Shown here in pieces: positions 2,114-62,779 of a stretch of DNA of 64,000 nucleotides. Positions within the stretch are counted from its first letter, which is position 1. Every line of letters starts with the position of its first letter. The translations under genes were made by a program, and so were the position numbers. The notes under the pieces were generated by a model. It searched no databases, had not been told where the DNA came from, and saw only the letters and a list, made by a program, of their open reading frames with translations. Source of the stretch: Alsobacter soli (GTDB lineage Bacteria; Pseudomonadota; Alphaproteobacteria; Rhizobiales; Beijerinckiaceae); contig NZ_PVZS01000014.1 of NCBI RefSeq assembly GCF_003004785.1, positions 1 through 64,000 of the forward strand, written 5' to 3'.

Positions 2114-2595
2114 CGTCATCCCCGGGACTTTCCCGCGGATTGACGCGGGCGGCGGGGCGTGGATGGCCGGGACAAGCCCGGCCATGACGGGAGAGGTTCT
2201 TCGCCGTGTTCGTCGTCCCTGCGATTGTCGAGGGATCCACGCGGTCGGCGCGGGCGCGGATGGCCGGGACAAGCCCGGCCATGACGGAGAGAGGTTCTTC
2301 GCCGTGTTCGTCATCCCCAGGCTTGTCCCGGGGATCCACGCGGTCGGCGTGGGCGTGGATGGCCGGGACGAGCCGGCCATGACGGAGAGAGATCGAGTGC
2401 GGTTTGCGCCGTCATCCCCGGCCGGAGCCGCGGAGCGGCGGAGGGGAAGGGGATCCAGGGGCAACCTGGCGCCCCCTCTTCGGTGACGAGAGCCCGGCAG
2501 GCCCCCGCGCTGTCCTGCAAGGGCGGAACCGGGCAAGCCCGGCGCGGGCGGCCCTGGATCCCCTTCCCGGCGCTTCGCGCCGCCGGGGATGACGG
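2114..2595. repeat. Intergenic palindromic repeats: three type A units plus one type B pair
   Basis: The 600-base gap between fliE and fliQ contains no gene. Type A units sit at 2114-2190, 2211-2287 and 2309-2385. Each has a left half (CGTCATCCCCGGGCTTGTCC-like) and a right half (GGCCGGGACAAGCCCGGCC, then ATGACGG) that pair with each other and also fold individually as 7-bp-stem hairpins. 2410-2595 is a type B pair: CCCCGGCCGGAGCCGCGGAG at one end, and CCCTTCCCGGCGCTTCGCGC at the other end, closed by CGGGGATGACGG. Short open frames inside are spurious. Confidence 0.9.
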
Positions 2596-2929: not shown

Positions 2930-2999
2930 GGTGACCGCCGTCGCGCAGGCGGGATGGGGCCCGCCGCTCCCAGCCGGGACTGCGCGGGGCGGGGCTTGG

Positions 3000-3764
3000 A
3001 TGTCGTTCACCTTCGGGCCGGGGATCGCGGCCCTGTTCATGATCGTGTTCGCGCGCGTCGGCGTCCTCGTGATGCTGATGCCGGCGCTGGGCGAGCGCAT
3101 GGCCCCGGCGCGGGTGCGGCTGGCGCTGGCGATCTTCCTGTCGCTCGCCATGACGCCGACGGTGCGCGCCGCCCTGCCGCCGCAGGCGACGCAGGGCAAT
3201 GCGGTGTTCACGACGCTTTTCCTGGAGCTCGCCATCGGGCTGATGATCGGGCTGTGCGCCCGCATCGTGGTGGCGAGCCTGCAGACGGCGGGCAACTTCG
3301 TGTCCCAGGCGCTCGGGCTCGGCTTCGCCGAAACGGTGGACCCGTCCCAGGGCGGCCAGGCGGCGGCGCTCGGCAACCTGCTCACCATGCTGGGCGTCAC
3401 GCTGCTGTTCGCCACGGACGGGCACCACGTGGTGATCGCCGCCATCGGGGGCAGCTACGCGGCGCTGCCGCCCGGCGCGCCGCCGCCTCCCGGGGACGCG
3501 GCCATGCTGGCGCTCTCCACCATGGGCAAGGGCTTCGCCATCGCCGTGCAGGTGGCGGCGCCGTTCATCGTGTTCGGGGTGATCATCAACCTGGGGCTGG
3601 GCGTGCTGTCCCGGCTCATGCCGGCGCTGCAGGTGTTCTTCCTGGGCATGCCGGCGACGATCCTGATCGGCTTCGTCATCCTGCTCGCGTCCATCGGGCT
3701 GATGATGGGCATCTTCCTGCGGGAGGTCTCCGACTTCCTGGTCCCGTTCGCGACGCCGGGGTGA
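3000..3764 (+). CDS. fliR: Flagellar export gate protein FliR
   Basis: This 254-residue, six-helix membrane protein forms the core of the export gate with FliP and FliQ. Conserved features are FARVGVLVMLMPALGE near the N-terminus, the ELAIGLMIGL segment, and GNFVSQALGLGFAETVDP. The family is usually 250-260 residues, so I prefer the ATG at 3000. A GTG at 2931, two bases after fliQ, would add 23 unconserved residues. The gene is followed 3 bases later by flhB. Confidence 0.94.
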   Translation: MSFTFGPGIAALFMIVFARVGVLVMLMPALGERMAPARVRLALAIFLSLAMTPTVRAALPPQATQGNAVFTTLFLELAIGLMIGLCARIVVASLQTAGNFVSQALGLGFAETVDPSQGGQAAALGNLLTMLGVTLLFATDGHHVVIAAIGGSYAALPPGAPPPPGDAAMLALSTMGKGFAIAVQVAAPFIVFGVIINLGLGVLSRLMPALQVFFLGMPATILIGFVILLASIGLMMGIFLREVSDFLVPFATPG

Positions 3765-3767
3765 CGC

Positions 3768-4832
3768 ATGGCGGACACCGACCAGGAAGACCGCACAGAA
3801 GAGCCGTCCCTCCGGCGCCTGCAACAGGCGATCGAGCGCGGCGACGTCGCCAAGAGCCAGGAGATCAACACCTGGTTCGTGCTGGCCGGCGGCACGCTGG
3901 CGCTCGCCGCCGTGGGGGACACGGCGGCCGGGTCGCTCAAGGGCATGCTGCAGGGGCTGCTCTCCCAGGCGGGGAACGTGCCGGCGGAGCCGGGGGCGCT
4001 CAAGGCCTACGGGACATACGCCCTGTGGGCCGGGCTGTCGGCGCTGGCGCTGCCGCTGGGCGTGATCCTCTTCGCCGGGCTCGCGGGCGCCATGGCGCAG
4101 CACCGGCCGATGATCACCACGGAGCCGCTGGCGCCGCAGCTGTCGCGCATCTCGCCCATGGCGGGGTTCAAGCGCGTCTTCGGCAAGGAGGCCTTCGTCC
4201 AGTTCCTGAAGGGGCTGCTGAAGATCGGCGTGGTGGGGGCGGCGATCTACATGGCGGTGTGGCCGGAGATCGCCCGCATGGAGAGCTTCGCCACCCTGGA
4301 CGTGGCGCTGCTGCTGCCGGCCGTGAAGGCCGAGGCGCTCACGCTGATGAAGGCGGTGCTGATCATCTACGCGGTGATCGCCGGGGGCGACTACGTCTAC
4401 CAGCGCATCAGCTGGTACAACCGCCAGCGGATGACCAAGCAGGAGCTCAAGGAAGAGCACAAGGAGACGGAGGGCAATCCCGAGGTGAAGGCCAAGCTGC
4501 GGGCGCTGCGCGCCAAGCAGGCGCGCCAGCGCATGATGGCCAAGGTGCCCCAGGCCACGGTGGTCGTCATGAACCCGACCCACTTCGCGGTGGCGCTGCA
4601 ATACGAACCCGGGATGCAGGCGCCGCAGTGCGTGGCCAAGGGCCTCGACGCGGTCGCGCTGCGCATCCGCGCGCTGGCGGAGGAGAACGGAGTGCCCGTC
4701 GTTGAAAATCCGCCGCTCGCCCGCGCGCTTTACAAGGCGGTTGAACTCGATCAGGACATCCCGGTCGAACACTACAAGGCCGTGGCCGAAGTGATCGGCT
4801 ACGTGATGCGCCTGCGCCGGAGGCGCGCATGA
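3768..4832 (+). CDS. flhB: Flagellar export switch protein FlhB
   Basis: This 354-residue protein controls the substrate-specificity switch from rod/hook to filament export. It has an N-terminal basic cytoplasmic stretch (DQEDRTEEPSLRRLQQA), four membrane segments and a cytoplasmic C-terminal domain. The autocleavage motif NPTH is at residues 269-272, cutting between Asn269 and Pro270 as in enteric FlhB. The end, PVEHYKAVAEVIGYVMRLR, is typical. It follows fliR by 3 bases, and its stop overlaps the cckA start (ATGA at 4829-4832), which predicts translational coupling. Confidence 0.97.
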   Translation: MADTDQEDRTEEPSLRRLQQAIERGDVAKSQEINTWFVLAGGTLALAAVGDTAAGSLKGMLQGLLSQAGNVPAEPGALKAYGTYALWAGLSALALPLGVILFAGLAGAMAQHRPMITTEPLAPQLSRISPMAGFKRVFGKEAFVQFLKGLLKIGVVGAAIYMAVWPEIARMESFATLDVALLLPAVKAEALTLMKAVLIIYAVIAGGDYVYQRISWYNRQRMTKQELKEEHKETEGNPEVKAKLRALRAKQARQRMMAKVPQATVVVMNPTHFAVALQYEPGMQAPQCVAKGLDAVALRIRALAEENGVPVVENPPLARALYKAVELDQDIPVEHYKAVAEVIGYVMRLRRRRA

Positions 4833-7444
4833 CGGCGGCGGACGGATGGACCATGGCTTCACGTGACCGGGCAGGACAGGACGCGATGATCGCAGGCGCG
4901 CCCGCCGCCGGGGCGGACCGGCCGCAGCGCTCCGGCAGCGCCGTGATGCTGCTGGCGCTCGCCGGCGTGCTGGTGGGCGCGGCCATCGCGCTGTCGCTGG
5001 TGGCGAGCGAGAAGGCGCAGCCGCTGATCATGGGGCTGCTCGCGTTGCTCGCCGTGGTGGGCGTCTTCGCCCTCTTCGCCGGGGCGGTCGGCATCGTGGA
5101 GTTCGCCGGCAAGACCAGCCGCAACGACCTGACCAAGTCGGTCGCCGACAGCGCCGCCGAGGGCCTGCTGGTGGTGGAGGCGGACGGGCGCGTCGCCTAC
5201 GCCAACGGCGCCTACCTGCGCTTCGCCGGGGCGCGCAGCGCCGACGCGGCGCTCACCGCGGAGCGGCTGTTCACCGGCTCCGCGGACGTGTCGGAGGCCA
5301 TTTACCGCCTGGCCCAGGCGGCGCGGGAGAGCAAGAGCGCCTCCGAAGAGATCCGCCTCTCGCCCCCGCTCGGCGCCCTGGAGGGCGTGGCCTGGTACCG
5401 CGTTCGCGTGCGCCCCGTGGACCGCCCCACTGGCCGGCGCGCCACGCTGTGGACCATCGCGGACGTGACCCGCGAGCGCGAGCGGCAGGAGAACGTCTTC
5501 CAGGAACTCCAGCACGCCATCGACTACCTGGACCACGCGCCGGCGGGCTTCCTGTCCGTCGACGCCGCCGGCGACGTCATCTACATGAACGCCACACTGG
5601 CGGGGTGGCTGGACTACGACCTCGCCCAGTTCGGCTCCGGCGGGCTGAAGCTGTCGGACCTGGTCCCCGGCGACGGCGGCGCGCTGCTCACCGGCGTGAT
5701 GGGCGGCGCCGGCGAGGTGCGCACGGAGATCCACGACCTCGACCTGCGGCGCCGGGGCGGCCAGTCCCTGCCGGTGCGGCTGTTCCACAGCGTGGCCTAC
5801 GCGTATGACGGCACGCCCGGCCCCTCGCGCACGCTGGTGCTCAACCGCTCCGCCGGCGAGGACGTGGCCGAGGGCCAGCGCGCCGCCGAGGTGCGCTTCG
5901 CGCGCTTCTTCAACAACACGCCGCTCGCCATCGCGACCATCGACCGGCACGGCCGCATCGCGCGCACCAACGGGCCCTTCGCCAAGCTGTTCGGCGGCGC
6001 CTTCAAGGGCCACGACGCCGCGGAGGCGCGCACCATCCAGGCCGTGGTGGCGGACCGCGACCGCGAACAGCTCACGGCCGCCATCGCGTCCGCCGCCCAG
6101 GGCCGTGGCGACATCGCGCCCATCGACCTGTCGCTCGCCGGGGAGGGCACCCGCTCGGCCCGCTTCTTCGTCACCGCGGTGGAGCACGAGGCCGAGGACG
6201 GCGAGGCGGGGATCGTCTACGCGCTCGACACCACCGAGCAGCGGGCGCTGGAAGCGCAGTTCGCCCAGGCGCAGAAGATGCAAGCGGTGGGCGAGCTCGC
6301 CGGCGGCGTGGCGCACGACTTCAACAACGTGCTGCAGGGCATCATGGGCTACGCCGACCTGCTGCTCGTGAACCACCGGCCGACCGACCCGTCCTTCCAG
6401 GACATCATGCAGATCAAGCAGAACGCCAACCGGGCGGCCGGCCTCGTGCGCCAGCTGCTGGCGTTCTCGCGCCGCCAGACCCTGCGGCCGCAGGTGATGC
6501 ATTTCGGCGAGGTGCTCTCCGACCTGGGCATGCTGCTGAAGCGCCTCCTTGGGGAGCGTGTGGAGCTCGACGTGCGCCACGGCCGCGACCTGTGGCCGGT
6601 GCGGGCCGACCTCACCCAGTTCGAGCAGGTGATCGTCAACCTGGCCGTGAACGCGCGCGACGCGATGCCCGAGGGCGGGCGCCTCGCCATCCGCACCAGC
6701 AACGTGCACGCCACCGAGCCGGTGGCGGCGGGCGAGCAGGTGATGCCGGCGGCGGACTACGTGCTGATCGAGATCCAGGACAGCGGCACCGGCATCCCGC
6801 AGGAGATCATCGAGAAGATCTTCCAGCCGTTCTTCACCACCAAGGAGGTGGGCAAGGGCACGGGCCTGGGGCTCTCCATGGTGTACGGCTTCGTCAAGCA
6901 GTCGGGCGGCTACATCTTCTGCGACAGCGAGGTCGGGCGCGGCACCACGTTCCGCATCTACCTGCCCCGCCACAGCGGCGAGGAGCACGCCGAGGAGGCC
7001 CCGGCCGCCGCGGCCGGCGCCAAGGGCGACGCCAAGGCGGTCGCCCCGGCCAAGCCGAAGCCCAACGCCGACCTCACCGGCAACGGCACCGTGCTGCTGG
7101 TGGAGGACGAGGAGGCCGTGCGCGCCTTCGGAGCCCGCGCGTTGGCCCAGCGCGGCTACACCGTGCTGGAGGCCGCCTCCGGCGTGGAGGCTCTGCAGGT
7201 CTTCGACGAGCAGGGCGGCGCGATCGACCTCGTGGTCTCGGACGTGGTCATGCCCGAGATGGACGGCCCCTCGCTGCTCCGCGAGCTGCGCAAGCGCGAC
7301 GGCAAGGCCAAGGTGATCTTCGTGTCCGGCTACGCCGAGGAGGCCTTCAACAAGAACCTGCCGGACGGGGAGGATTTCTCCTTCCTGCCCAAGCCCTTCA
7401 CGCTGAAGCAGCTGATCGAGGCGGTGAAGACGGCGCTGGGGTGA
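4829..7444 (+). CDS. cckA: Hybrid sensor histidine kinase CckA
   Basis: This 871-residue kinase-phosphatase is the head of the CckA-ChpT-CtrA phosphorelay that controls cell cycle and flagellar genes in alphaproteobacteria. It has two membrane helices (about residues 33-53 and 58-84), then PAS-like domains up to about 480. The HisKA box [11 protein letters not shown] has phospho-acceptor His496. The HATPase region contains [21 protein letters not shown] and [13 protein letters not shown]-terminal receiver domain (about 753-871) has Asp805 in [12 protein letters not shown]. The 4-base overlap with flhB ties the kinase to the flagellar operon. There is a possible second Met at residue 9 (4853), so the exact start is open. 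Assignment to CckA rather than another hybrid kinase rests on domain order and the characteristic HDFNN box. Confidence 0.93.
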
Positions 7445-7528
7445 GGCGGCGCACGCCCTCCCCGCGCGGGGCGAAGGTGGCGCGAACTCCCGGGCCGCGC
7501 CCGTAACGCTTTCATGCTTCCCCTCCAC

Positions 7529-8728
7529 CGTCATCCCCGGGCTCGTCCCGGGGATCCACGCCTTCGGGCAGGACATGGATGGCCGGGACGAGCCCGGGGA
7601 TGACGGCGGCGGCAGGTCCATGCGAGATCCGCGCCGAAGTTCCGTGCGAGTTTCATGCAATCCCGCCACCGTCATCCCCGGGCTCGTCCCGGGGATTTAC
7701 GCCCTGGGGGCAGGGCGTGGATGGCCGGGACAAGCCCGGCCATGACGGCGGCGGCAGGTCTATACGAGATCCGCGCCGAAGTTCCGTGCGAGTTTCATGC
7801 AATCCCGCCACCGTCATCCCCGGGCCCGTCCCGGGGATTTACGCCCTGTGGGCAGGGCGTGGATGGCCGGGACAAGCCCGGCCATGACGGCGGCGGCAGG
7901 TCGATACGAGATCCGCGCCGAAGTTCCGTGCCGGCTCCATGCAATTCCCCCGTCATCCCTGGGCTCGTCCCGGGGATCCACGCCCTCGGGCAGTGCGTGG
8001 GTGGCCGGGACAAGCCCGGCCATGACGGCGGCGGCAGGTCGATACGAGATCCGCGCCGAAGTTCCGTGCGAGTTTCATGCAATCCCGCCACCGTCATCCC
8101 CGGGCTCGTCCCGGGGATTTACGCCCTGTGGGCAGGGCGTGGATGGCCGGGACAAGCCCGGCCATGACGGCGGCGGCAGGTCTATACGAGATCCGCGCCG
8201 AAGTTCCGTGCCGGCTCCATGCAATTCCCCCGTCATCCCTGGGCTCGTCCCGGGGATCCACGCCCTCGGGCAGTGCGTGGGTGGCCGGGACAAGCCCGGC
8301 CATGACGGCGGCGGCAGGTCGATACGAGATCCGCGCCGAAGTTCCGTGCCGGCTCCATGCAATTCCCCCGTCATCCCTGGGCTCGTCCCGGGGATCCACG
8401 CCCTCGGGCAGTGCGTGGGTGGCCGGGACAAGCCCGGCCATGACGGCGGCGGCAGGTCGATACGAGATCCGCGCCGAAGTTCCGTGCCGGCTCCATGCAA
8501 TTCCCCCGTCATCCCTGGGCTCGTCCCGGGGATCCACGCCCTCGGGCAGTGCGTGGGTGGCCGGGACAAGCCCGGCCATGACGGCGGCGGCAGGTCGATA
8601 CGAGATCCGCGCCGAAGTTCCGTGCGGGCTTCATGCAATCCCGCCACCGTCATCCCCGGGCTTGTCCCGGGGATCCACGCCCTGGGGCAGTGCGTGGATC
8701 CCCGGGACAAGCCCGGCCATGACGGGCT
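7529..8728. repeat. Tandem array of nine type A palindromic units between cckA and recA
   Basis: Units begin with CGTCATCC at 7529, 7670, 7812, 7951, 8092, 8231, 8369, 8507 and 8648, giving periods of 138-142 bases. Each holds the A palindrome (two hairpin halves) and a conserved spacer that includes GAGATCCGCGCCGAAGTTCC. Two subtypes are interleaved: units 2, 3 and 5 have GGGGATTTACGCC and TTTCATGCAATCCC at their edges; units 4, 6, 7 and 8 have CATCCCTGGG and CTCCATGCAATTCC. The first and last units carry hybrid halves. No gene lies in 7445-8911. Confidence 0.95.
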
Positions 8729-8813
8729 AGAGCAGCGAGGATCCTGGTCAGCGACGCCAGCGTGGCGCGGGTTCCGCAGCATCGGGCGGGTGGAGTCATG
8801 GTTGTAGTGGGTA

Positions 8814-8828
8814 GAACAAAAAAAGAAC
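8814..8828 (-). promoter_or_regulatory. LexA (SOS) box upstream of recA
   Basis: GAAC-N7-GAAC, with seven A as spacer, is an exact match to the alphaproteobacterial SOS box (GTTC-N7-GTTC on the other strand). It lies 84-98 bases upstream of the recA start. A third GAAC at 8839-8842 is off register. LexA repression relieved by DNA damage is the expected control. Confidence 0.88.
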
Positions 8829-8911: not shown

Positions 8912-9997
<1,086 letters not shown>

Positions 9998-10092: not shown

Positions 10093-10383
10093 CGTCATTG
10101 CGAGGAGCGCAGCGACGAAGCAATCCAGGCGCCGGATCCGATGAGCGACATAGCAGAGCGTTCAGGAGAAGTTCTGGATTGCTTCGCTTCGCTCGCAATA
10201 ACGGTGAAGAGCGGCGCCGAGGCTCACCCTCCCCTTAAGGGGGAGGGTCGGCCCGCAGGGCCGGGGTGGGGTGAGGCAGGGCGTGGAGAGCAACGCTGCA
10301 GGTCCGGTCGCGCTCGCCAGGCGCAGGCCACCCCACCCCGCCGGACTGGGCCCGACGACCCTCCCCTCGAGGGGAGGGTGGGC
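10093..10383. repeat. Type C and type D palindromic repeats between recA and alaS
   Basis: 10093-10204 is a type C pair: CATTGCGAGGAGCGCAGCGA at one end, and GATTGCTTCGCTTCGCTCGC followed by AATAACGG at the other. 10229-10383 is a type D pair built on CCTCCCCTTAAGGGGGAGGG and CCCTCCCCTCGAGGGGAGGG, with GGCCCGCAGGGCC-like inner hairpins. The gap 10384-10536 has no gene and presumably contains the alaS promoter. Confidence 0.85.
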
Positions 10384-16871: not shown

Positions 16872-16957
16872 TCGTCCTTGCGAGGAGCGGAGCGACGAAG
16901 CCATCCAGGGAGCCTAGCGGCCAACCCTGGATTGCTTCGCTGCGCTCGCAATGACGG
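16872..16957. repeat. Type C palindromic repeat between folP and folB
   Basis: The left end TTGCGAGGAGCGGAGCGACG and the right end GATTGCTTCGCTGCGCTCGC, followed by AATGACGG, are inverted copies. The element sits within a probable operon. Confidence 0.85.
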
Positions 16958-18786: not shown

Positions 18787-18848
18787 GGCGGCGCGGACGC
18801 AGGTCCCGGACCCCGGGAAAGTTCATGCTTCGGCATTCCGCTCTCAGC

Positions 18849-19032
18849 CGTCATCCCCGGCCGGAGCGCCGAAGGCGCGGAGGGTGAAGGGGATCCAGGG
18901 CGGCGCGCGGCGTGCTCCCCCGCTGCTACCTTCAAACGCTCGCGTCGGGGTGACCCGGTTCACGGCCGAATTTTTGGATCAGCCCCCTGGATCCCCTTCC
19001 CGGCCTGCTGCGCAGGCCGCCGGGGATGACGG
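18849..19032. repeat. Type B palindromic repeat after trmJ
   Basis: The left end is TCATCCCCGGCCGGAGCGCC and the right end is CCCCTTCCCGGCCTGCTGCG, closed by CGGGGATGACGG. They are inverted relative to each other around about 90 unconserved bases. Confidence 0.85.
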
Positions 19033-19070: not shown

Positions 19071-19517
19071 CGTCATCCCCGGGCTTGTCCCGGGGATCCA
19101 CGCGGAGCGGCCGGGCGCGGACGGCCGGGACCAGCCCGGCCATGACGGAGAGATTCGGCGCCGGACATTTTGGGGCGCCGGGAGGCTTTCGCCCGTCATC
19201 CCCGGGCTTGTCCCGGGGATCCACGCGGGACGGCCGGGCGTGGATGGCCGGGACAAGCCCGGCCATGACGGAGAGAATCGGCGCCGGACATTTTGGGGCG
19301 CCCGGAGGCTTTCGCCCGTCATCCCCGGGCTTGTGCCGGGGATCCACGCGGGACGGCCGGGCGTGGATGGCCGGGACAAGCCCGGCCATGACGGAGAGAA
19401 TCGGCGCCGGACATTTTGGGGCGCCCGGAGGCTTTCGCCCGTCATCCCCGGGCTTGTCCCGGGGATCCACGCGGAGCGGCCGGGCGCGGATGGCCGGGAC
19501 CAGCCCGGCCATGACGG
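19071..19517. repeat. Exact 123-bp tandem array of four type A units upstream of murI
   Basis: CGTCATCCCCGGGCTTGT begins at 19071, 19194, 19317 and 19440, a period of exactly 123 bases each time. The spacers share GCGCCGGACATTTTGGGGCG and GGAGGCTTTCGCC. The third unit has one change in the hairpin loop (TTGTGCC for TTGTCCC). The spacer differs from that of the array at 7529-8728, so the two arrays arose independently from the same palindrome. There is no gene between 18787 and 19588. Confidence 0.95.
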
Positions 19518-20522: not shown

Positions 20523-20605
20523 CGTCATTGCGAGCGGAGCGAAGCAATCCAGAGCGGCGCCAAGCCCCCTGGATTGCTTCGTCGCTTCGCTCCTCGCAAG
20601 GACGA
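20523..20605. repeat. Type C palindromic repeat after murI
   Basis: CGTCATTGCGAGCGGAGCGA and CTTCGCTCCTCGCAAGGACG are the outer inverted arms. The element lies in the 324-base murI-rpsD gap, which also holds a hairpin at 20653-20680. Confidence 0.85.
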
Positions 20606-31141: not shown

Positions 31142-31224
31142 CGTCATGACGAGCGAAGCGAAGCAATCCAGCGCTGTCGGGCCGATCCTGGATTGCTTCG
31201 TCGCTTCGCTCCTCGCAAGGACGA
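31142..31224. repeat. Type C palindromic repeat between purB and pstS
   Basis: GACGAGCGAAGCGAAGCAAT and ATTGCTTCGTCGCTTCGCTC are the inverted arms. It lies between the purB 3' end and the pstS promoter. Confidence 0.85.
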
Positions 31225-43345: not shown

Positions 43346-43485
43346 CCCTGGATTGCTTCGCTTCGCTCGCAATGACGGAGGGCGCAGTCCGCCATGTCGC
43401 CGTCATTGCGAGGAGCGAAGCGACGAAGCAATCCAGCGCGCTTGCGGCGCAGCTCTGGATTGCTTCGCTTCGCTCGCAAAGACGG
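43346..43485. repeat. Type C repeats between livK and bmt
   Basis: One arm lies at 43346-43379 and a full pair at 43401-43485 (CGTCATTGCGAGGAGCGAAG and TTGCTTCGCTTCGCTCGCAA). The arm at 43346 and the pair together give three copies in the 384-base gap. A terminator at 43511-43539 is also present; nothing else was recognised in 43177-43560. Confidence 0.85.
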
Positions 43486-53215: not shown

Positions 53216-53283
53216 TCACAGCTGAAGGGGCGTCAACCGCCGTTGGAGAGTTCGGAGACAGCCTGCGCCAGCGCCTTGCCTCT

Positions 53284-53659
53284 GTCATCCCCGGGCTTGT
53301 CCCGGGGATCCACGCGGGCGGCGGAGGCGTGGATGGCCGGGACACGCCCGGTCATGACGGGGAGGTCAGTGTGTAGGGAGCGGCCATGGCTTGCGACTTC
53401 CGCCGTCATCCCCGGGCTTATCCCGGGGATCCACGCGGGCGGCGGAGGCGTGGATGGCCGGGACGAGCCCGGCCATGACGAGAGGGAGGGCGCAGACATT
53501 ACTGGCGTCGCTCCGCCGTCATCCCCGGCCGGAGCCGCGCAGCGGCGGAGGGGAAGGGGATCCAGGGGCGACCTGCGCCGCTCCCAGAGCGGGCCGGTGA
53601 GATCGGCGCGCGCCGTCCTGGATCCCCTTCCCGGCGCTGCGCGCCGCCGGGGATGACGG
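53284..53659. repeat. Two type A units and one type B pair before the GntR gene
   Basis: Type A units are at 53284-53360 and 53404-53480, with the first starting TGTCATCC instead of CGTCATCC. Type B lies at 53517-53659. These fill most of the 565-base gap between the deaminase and GntR genes, so the two starts are divergent yet about 565 bases apart. Confidence 0.9.
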
Positions 53660-53739
53660 CCGTGGGACGACAGACGGGGGCGGTCGCCGGGGGTGACGGC
53701 GGAGCGCGGGCCGGGTGAAACGAAGGACGCGGAGCGGAC

Positions 53740-62328: not shown

Positions 62329-62779
62329 TCGCCGTCCTGGCGAGGAGCGCAGCGACGAAGCAATCCAGGACGACGGCGCAGACTCCAGCGACGTCATGGC
62401 CGGGCTTGTCCCGGCCATCCACGGGGGCCAGCCGCGTGGATCCCCGGGACTAGCCCGGGGATGACGGAAAGGGTAGCCGTGGCGTATGCCGCCAAAGGCC
62501 TGGATTGCTTCGCTTCGCTCGCAATGACGGGGAGAACCGCGATCTGTCATCGCGAGGAGCGGAGCGACGCGGCGATCCAGGGGCGCGTTGGCGCTGGATT
62601 GCTTCGCTGCGCTCGCAATGACGGTGGAGGGGCCTGCTCCGGCGCCGCCGGGCTCGTCCCGGCCATCCGCGGGGTCCAGCCGCGTGGATCCCCGGGACTA
62701 GCCCGGGGATGACGGACATATTGGTCGTGGCGTGCGCCGCCAGAGGCCTGGATTGCTTCGCTTCGCTCGCAATGACGGT
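62329..62779. repeat. Mosaic of type C and type A repeats between coxM and coxD
   Basis: Type C arms and pairs are at 62329-62373, 62500-62529, 62546-62625 and 62746-62779. Type A units in opposite orientation (GGCCGGGCTTGTCCCGGCC first, GATCCCCGGGACTAGCCCGG second) are at 62392-62467 and about 62646-62715. The 620-base gap contains no gene; nothing else is seen until the coxD start. Confidence 0.88.

Follow-up and report, generated by a model that had tools for sequence, protein, structure and literature searches.

The 1.2-kb repetitive stretch between cckA and recA of Alsobacter soli is, with a probability that we put at about 75%, a locally amplified heterodimer of CGTC-3-like palindromes that most likely has no role and persists as tolerated repetitive DNA, the recA promoter block being intact. 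Nine head-to-head dimers follow one another at this site, joined by a linker that occurs nowhere else in the host genome. The stretch analyzed, referred to as the window, comprises positions 1 to 64,000 of contig NZ_PVZS01000014.1. The host genome (G000) is a 5.19-Mb draft in 96 contigs, and the copy number of nine is a count from this draft assembly.

Organization of the Array

TRF called the array at 7525–8725 with a period of 138 bp, 8.6 copies, and 92% matches, and made a second call at 7510–8725 with a period of 280 bp and 4.3 copies. An arm scan resolved 18 arms that pair into nine head-to-head dimers, u1 to u9 (Table 1). This confirmed the nine units of 138–142 bp described in the earlier note, which had set the end of the array 4 bp too far, at 8728, and which had correctly named the flanking genes and described each unit as a two-hairpin palindrome with a conserved spacer. 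The dimers measure 77–78 bp, the conserved linkers 61 or 64 bp, and the successive unit periods are 141, 142, 139, 141, 139, 138, 138, and 141 bp.

Comparison of units cut inside the linker bore out the two interleaved subtypes that had been proposed (2, 3, 5 versus 4, 6, 7, 8); u4, u6, u7, and u8 show 0 differences over 138 bp, and u2, u3, and u5 differ by 1–3 positions in 142 bp. The subtype of a unit tracks the linker half preceding its dimer, and the order from u2 to u8 is a-a-b-a-b-b-b. The edge dimers u1 and u9 have diverged from the other units. The array linkers are 84–97% identical to the first one, unlike the unrelated spacers of a CRISPR array.

Table 1. Positions of the array, its units, the flanking genes, and related clusters in the window.
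Feature	Position	Strand	Basis or remark
cckA, 5' of the array	4829–7444	+	ORF; NF046020, 1246 bits (cut-off 1000)
Array (nine CGTC-type REP dimers, 61–64 bp linkers)	7529–8724		TRF, arm scan
Dimer u1	7529–7605		edge unit; right arm hybrid, stem non-complementary
Dimer u2	7670–7747		subtype a
Dimer u3	7812–7889		subtype a
Dimer u4	7951–8027		subtype b
Linker copy used as query	8027–8091		8 matches, all inside the cckA-recA array
Dimer u5	8092–8169		subtype a
Dimer u6	8231–8307		subtype b, identical to u4
Dimer u7	8369–8445		subtype b, identical to u4
Dimer u8	8507–8583		subtype b, identical to u4
Dimer u9	8648–8724		edge unit; right arm hybrid
GAAC-N7-GAAC in conserved block upstream of recA	8814–8828	+	motif match
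recA, 3' of the array	8912–9997	+	ORF; TIGR02012, 577 bits (cut-off 325)
Degenerate three-copy array	2114–2391		
Four-dimer array	19071–19516		
Dimer pair	53283–53480		
Dimer pair	62392–62714		

Both edge units carry reciprocal hybrid arms (7574–7605 and 8693–8724), in which the stem halves come from two different types and self-pairing is lost; other hybrids lie at positions 899–975 of locus L149 and 2939–3015 of locus L135. They could have arisen by template switching inside the hairpin or by gene conversion. The hybrids were dropped as proof of template switching, since with two arm types any hybrid will agree with the partner arm in one of its halves. Separately, open reading frames of up to 336 codons cross the array in several frames (7579–8807) and could get annotated as hypothetical proteins.

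Identity of the Palindromic Element

The arm consensus is ATCCCCGGG-CTTGT-CCCGGGGAT-CCA. Arm 1 of the dimer reads CGTCAT(CC)CCGGG-CTTGT-CCCGG(GG)ATCCACG, and arm 2 is inverted and of another stem type. A scan of 185,103 bases of the host genome, chosen partly for clusters, yielded 169 arms combining into 78 dimers, of which 76 were typed (one composite and one with N were left out). Both arms were self-complementary in 67 of the 76, and all 67 were heterodimers; the other nine had at least one non-complementary arm. The spacer between arms is 13 nt in 53 of the typed dimers. Variable stem positions were complementary in 93 of 99 arms, with repeated array units counted, by way of CC/GG, GG/CC, and GC/GC. 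The dimer ends are sharp (CGTC...GACG), mostly with C before and G after, and the flanks differ at the 38 sites typed.

In the available portion of the paper by Di Nocera et al. (2013; PMC3733652), CGTC-tagged REPs are described as having a CGTC end, stems of 8–9 bp almost always starting with AT, loops of 4–5 nt, and mostly CCA tails, and as occurring mainly as head-to-head dimers in hosts that are mostly alphaproteobacteria, with heterodimers predominating in CGTC-2 and CGTC-3 and no dedicated transposase. The element of A. soli has a terminal CGTC outside the stem (with occasional TGTC, CATC, GGTC, and other variants among the dimers), a 9-bp stem beginning with AT, a 5-nt loop, and a CCA tail, and it forms head-to-head heterodimers as CGTC-3 does, likewise in an alphaproteobacterial host. 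Of the transposase classes, the one searched for, PF01797, gave 0 matches in the host genome. As end, stem, loop, tail, and dimer traits all match the published ones, we file it under the CGTC REPs, where it fits nearest to CGTC-3.

No Rfam family matched the window at or above its gathering score. A REPIN/RAYT system was rejected, as the end is CGTC rather than of the GTAG type and a match to PF01797 (Y1 transposases, the RAYT domain) is absent from the host genome. For a target-site duplication, a trait of MITEs, the related genome G002 offered no clean empty site for alignment, the intergenic DNA being too diverged.

Distribution in the Host Genome and Its Relatives

The host genome contains 106 strict arms versus 0 for the pattern read backwards; the arms of the array are therefore not due to chance. 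With a slightly shorter pattern, arms were present in 92 of 199 family genomes, most of all in the host (122), followed by 73, 62, 56, and 54. Same-strand arms in tandem, 98–158 bp apart, were detected in 7 of the 199 family genomes (18 pairs in the host, 8 in genome G131, 2 in G002, and one each in four) and in 6 of the 397 genomes sampled from the order (the host again and five others with one). The two samples hold one genome per species and overlap by 20 genomes, giving 12 of 576 with tandem arms. Against the 18 pairs of the host stand 575 other genomes, one with 8, one with 2, nine with 1, and the rest with 0; some of the single cases may be just two arms close together, and exact patterns miss diverged arms. 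The same-strand pattern replaced a strict tandem-dimer pattern (20 in the host, 1 in G002, 0 in 197 others) that overstated the contrast by missing dimers with a differing second arm, and the replacement brought G131 to light.

Long-period tandem repeats (period at least 60 bp, TRF score at least 100) occupied four loci in 84 kb of the host taken regardless of clusters, three in the window and one in locus L140; none appeared in 123 loci of other genomes totaling ~1.6 Mb, some regions being counted twice. Two or more dimers were present at 16 of 38 sampled host sites, in a sample chosen partly for clusters. Clusters are thus common in this genome, one of them with nine dimers, whereas they are rare in the CGTC families, Neisseria and Wolbachia excepted, according to the part of PMC3733652 that treats them. 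As the earlier note had seen, the palindrome also recurs in the window as single units and short clusters (Table 1).

Other repeats accompany these dimers. The window also contains dispersed copies of a second CGTC-type palindrome, CGTCATTGCGAGC...GAAGCAATCCAG (10174–10203, 16927–16956, 20523–20552, 31142–31171, 43348–43484, and 62500–62777), which forms the L140 array (93 bp × 8.9, or 187 × 4.4; positions 4742–5575), ~4.7 kb past the window end. By eye, a third pair of palindromes (CCGTCATCCCCGGCCGGAGC... / ...GCCGGGGATGACGG), which has CGTC ends and long loops, was recognized at ~18848–19030, 2410–2560, and 53514–53690.

Genome G131, which may belong to Chelatococcus, has arrays at three separate loci (L147, L148, L151), each with five to six dimers. 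By eye, their linkers are related to one another, unlike those of the host arrays, so that more than local duplication was at work there; the dimer may have been mobile together with its linker.

The cckA-recA Gap in Relatives

Both genes could be placed in 48 of 121 sequences, the other 73 lacking one of the two in reach. Besides the two rows of the host genome, no arm at up to 8 mismatches was found in the gap in any of the 46 rows, three congeners included; these gaps span 101 to 7573 bp, the genes are not always neighbors, and some rows represent one genome twice. The gap measures 310–346 bp in the three congeners. In G002, the syntenic region lies within 80 kb of sequence in which two arms of another type and no CCGGG-type arm at up to 7 mismatches were found. 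The absence of CCGGG-type arms from this sequence and of arms from the congener gaps means that the array is younger than the G002 split or was lost in the congeners. On these comparisons, the array looks recent. The idea of a fast-evolving locus fits its absence from the three congeners, a comparison of one genome per species.

Probable Local Duplication and Alternative Origins

A 65-bp linker copy matched the host genome eight times, always in the cckA-recA array, and had 0 matches elsewhere in that genome and 0 in 24 relatives. A linker private to the array argues that the units share one local origin and are not separate insertions. The other clusters of the host have their own periods, and their first linkers are at most 62% identical end to end; by BLAST, several between-array linkers contain other repeat families in common. 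The same array is thus not found at many unrelated loci at a fixed length, an observation that the earlier note had named as one that would speak against it. Together, the private linker and the differing periods and linkers of the other clusters make local tandem duplication the most likely origin, rather than repeated insertion. Along its length the left flank resembles the array linker, a match equaled by 8 of 1000 shuffles (19 of 1000 with the b linker). The right flank shows no such resemblance, 233 and 620 of 1000 shuffles matching equally well, so a simple first duplication was not reconstructed.

In the order of events that we infer, a dimer would have arrived in the cckA-recA gap in the A. 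soli lineage and would then have been duplicated in tandem together with ~61–64 bp of neighboring DNA. Through hairpin slippage, or through unequal sister exchange with the direct repeats as partners, the array may have gained further units and been homogenized in its middle, leaving the edges to diverge. An a-b pair that was first duplicated, with b units multiplying afterwards, would fit both the a-a-b-a-b-b-b order and the 280-bp period. The unequal exchange or gene conversion suggested beforehand is supported by the private shared linker, the near-identical middle versus diverged edge units, and the 280-bp period.

In an alternative view, a RAYT-type transposase mobilized the dimer and each unit inserted on its own. 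The sharp dimer ends, the differing flanks at the 38 typed sites, and the lack of the CCGGG-type arm in syntenic DNA of G002 speak for this. PF01797 matched 40 of 199 family genomes, and the Y1 transposase is commoner among genomes with ten or more arms (12 of 32 versus 28 of 167 others, with no correction for kinship). There is some association between the two, but 20 of the 32 arm-rich genomes have no such gene. Separate insertions would not yield near-identical linkers, and with PF01797 giving no match in the host genome, we rejected a RAYT as the current driver and regard this origin as very improbable. Loss of SbcCD as a cause of array growth was likewise not supported, in that SbcD, the one subunit looked at (TIGR00619, cut-off 77.65), scored 215 bits in the host genome and 219 in G002.

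An array that is real but owes its unit number and order to draft assembly we consider unlikely. The assembly consists of 96 contigs, the array repeats at least 300 bp of its own sequence exactly and has three identical b units in succession (u6–u8), three other clusters stop 61–144 bp from a contig end, and N occurs in or near some clusters. On the other side, the window is free of N, and sequence differences set apart the subtypes, the two edge units, and the a/b joints, so several units must exist. The three clusters at contig ends (L127, L132, L134) suggest that such arrays break the assembly of this genome.

Relation of the Array to recA

A block upstream of recA, conserved in the congeners, begins downstream of the array. 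It contains a GAAC-N7-GAAC motif, which we take to be the alphaproteobacterial SOS/LexA box; the motif has three matches in the window (both strands) and alone is weak evidence. With the promoter block outside the array, an influence on recA expression, although possible, lacks support, and nothing in the sequence that we found points to an array serving recA. The effect on topology, replication, or recA expression that had been proposed earlier finds no support, given this position of the block and the finding that 0 of 46 other cckA-recA rows have such an arm.

A single b unit is predicted to fold as RNA into a rod of −69.9 kcal/mol (z −1.6; 13 of 200 shuffles did equally well) and as DNA into a branched structure of −37 kcal/mol (z −1.9, 9 of 200 as good), a predicted excess over GC-rich shuffles that is only modest. 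Binding of gyrase or nucleoid proteins has been reported for REPs of E. coli, and an array selected as a transcriptional, topological, or mRNA 3'-end barrier between cckA and recA could act through such proteins. Its position between two same-strand genes and the folding capacity of its units agree with this, as does the accessible text of Di Nocera et al. (PMC3733652), which places REPs mostly behind genes and considers that many of them may function as RNA. Selection is nevertheless improbable, slightly more so than an assembly product, because the gap has no arm in any of the 46 other rows, the conserved promoter block lies outside the array, similar clusters occupy other loci of the host genome, and folding exceeds shuffles just modestly.

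Discussion

Clusters of other palindromic repeats are known. The BIMEs of E. coli consist of palindromic REPs of the GTAG superfamily clustered between genes. The cckA-recA array resembles them in its intergenic clustering and differs in having CGTC in place of GTAG; BIMEs are also mentioned in PMC3733652. In P. fluorescens SBW25, 16 ordered REPIN clusters that include flanking sequences have been described, the largest with four REPINs over more than 700 bp (Bertels and Rainey 2011; PMC3116915, available portion). These are likewise tandem, near-identical palindromic pairs with flanking DNA, but they belong to another REP superfamily whose host carries RAYT genes, whereas here nine dimers span 1.2 kb and no Y1 transposase was detected. 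CGTC repeats were not found in the parts of PMC6006769 and PMC5082802 available to us, the latter describing two other Bradyrhizobium REPs. Our literature search turned up no account of CGTC arrays this large, although one may exist. Tandem REP or REPIN arrays with flanking DNA are already known, and nine CGTC dimers at one site are a large example; the array stands out by its degree, being unusually long.

A broader reading, which we hold tentatively and find rather doubtful, is that the lineage is undergoing genome-wide tandem amplification, in which dispersed CGTC dimers of at least two sequence types would give rise to local arrays with their own periods, with no detected Y1 transposase and with sbcD present.

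The array also carries a warning, since the unit number of such intergenic arrays is difficult to establish from draft assemblies and they yield long spurious reading frames (here up to 336 codons). How CGTC repeats spread is left open in the portion of the defining paper at hand (PMC3733652), and a genome in which many arrays differ in their linkers makes it easier to tell the arrival of a dimer from its local tandem growth. If amplification is indeed genome-wide, the palindromic dimers of this lineage would seed tandem duplication by a host mechanism that has yet to be described for CGTC repeats.
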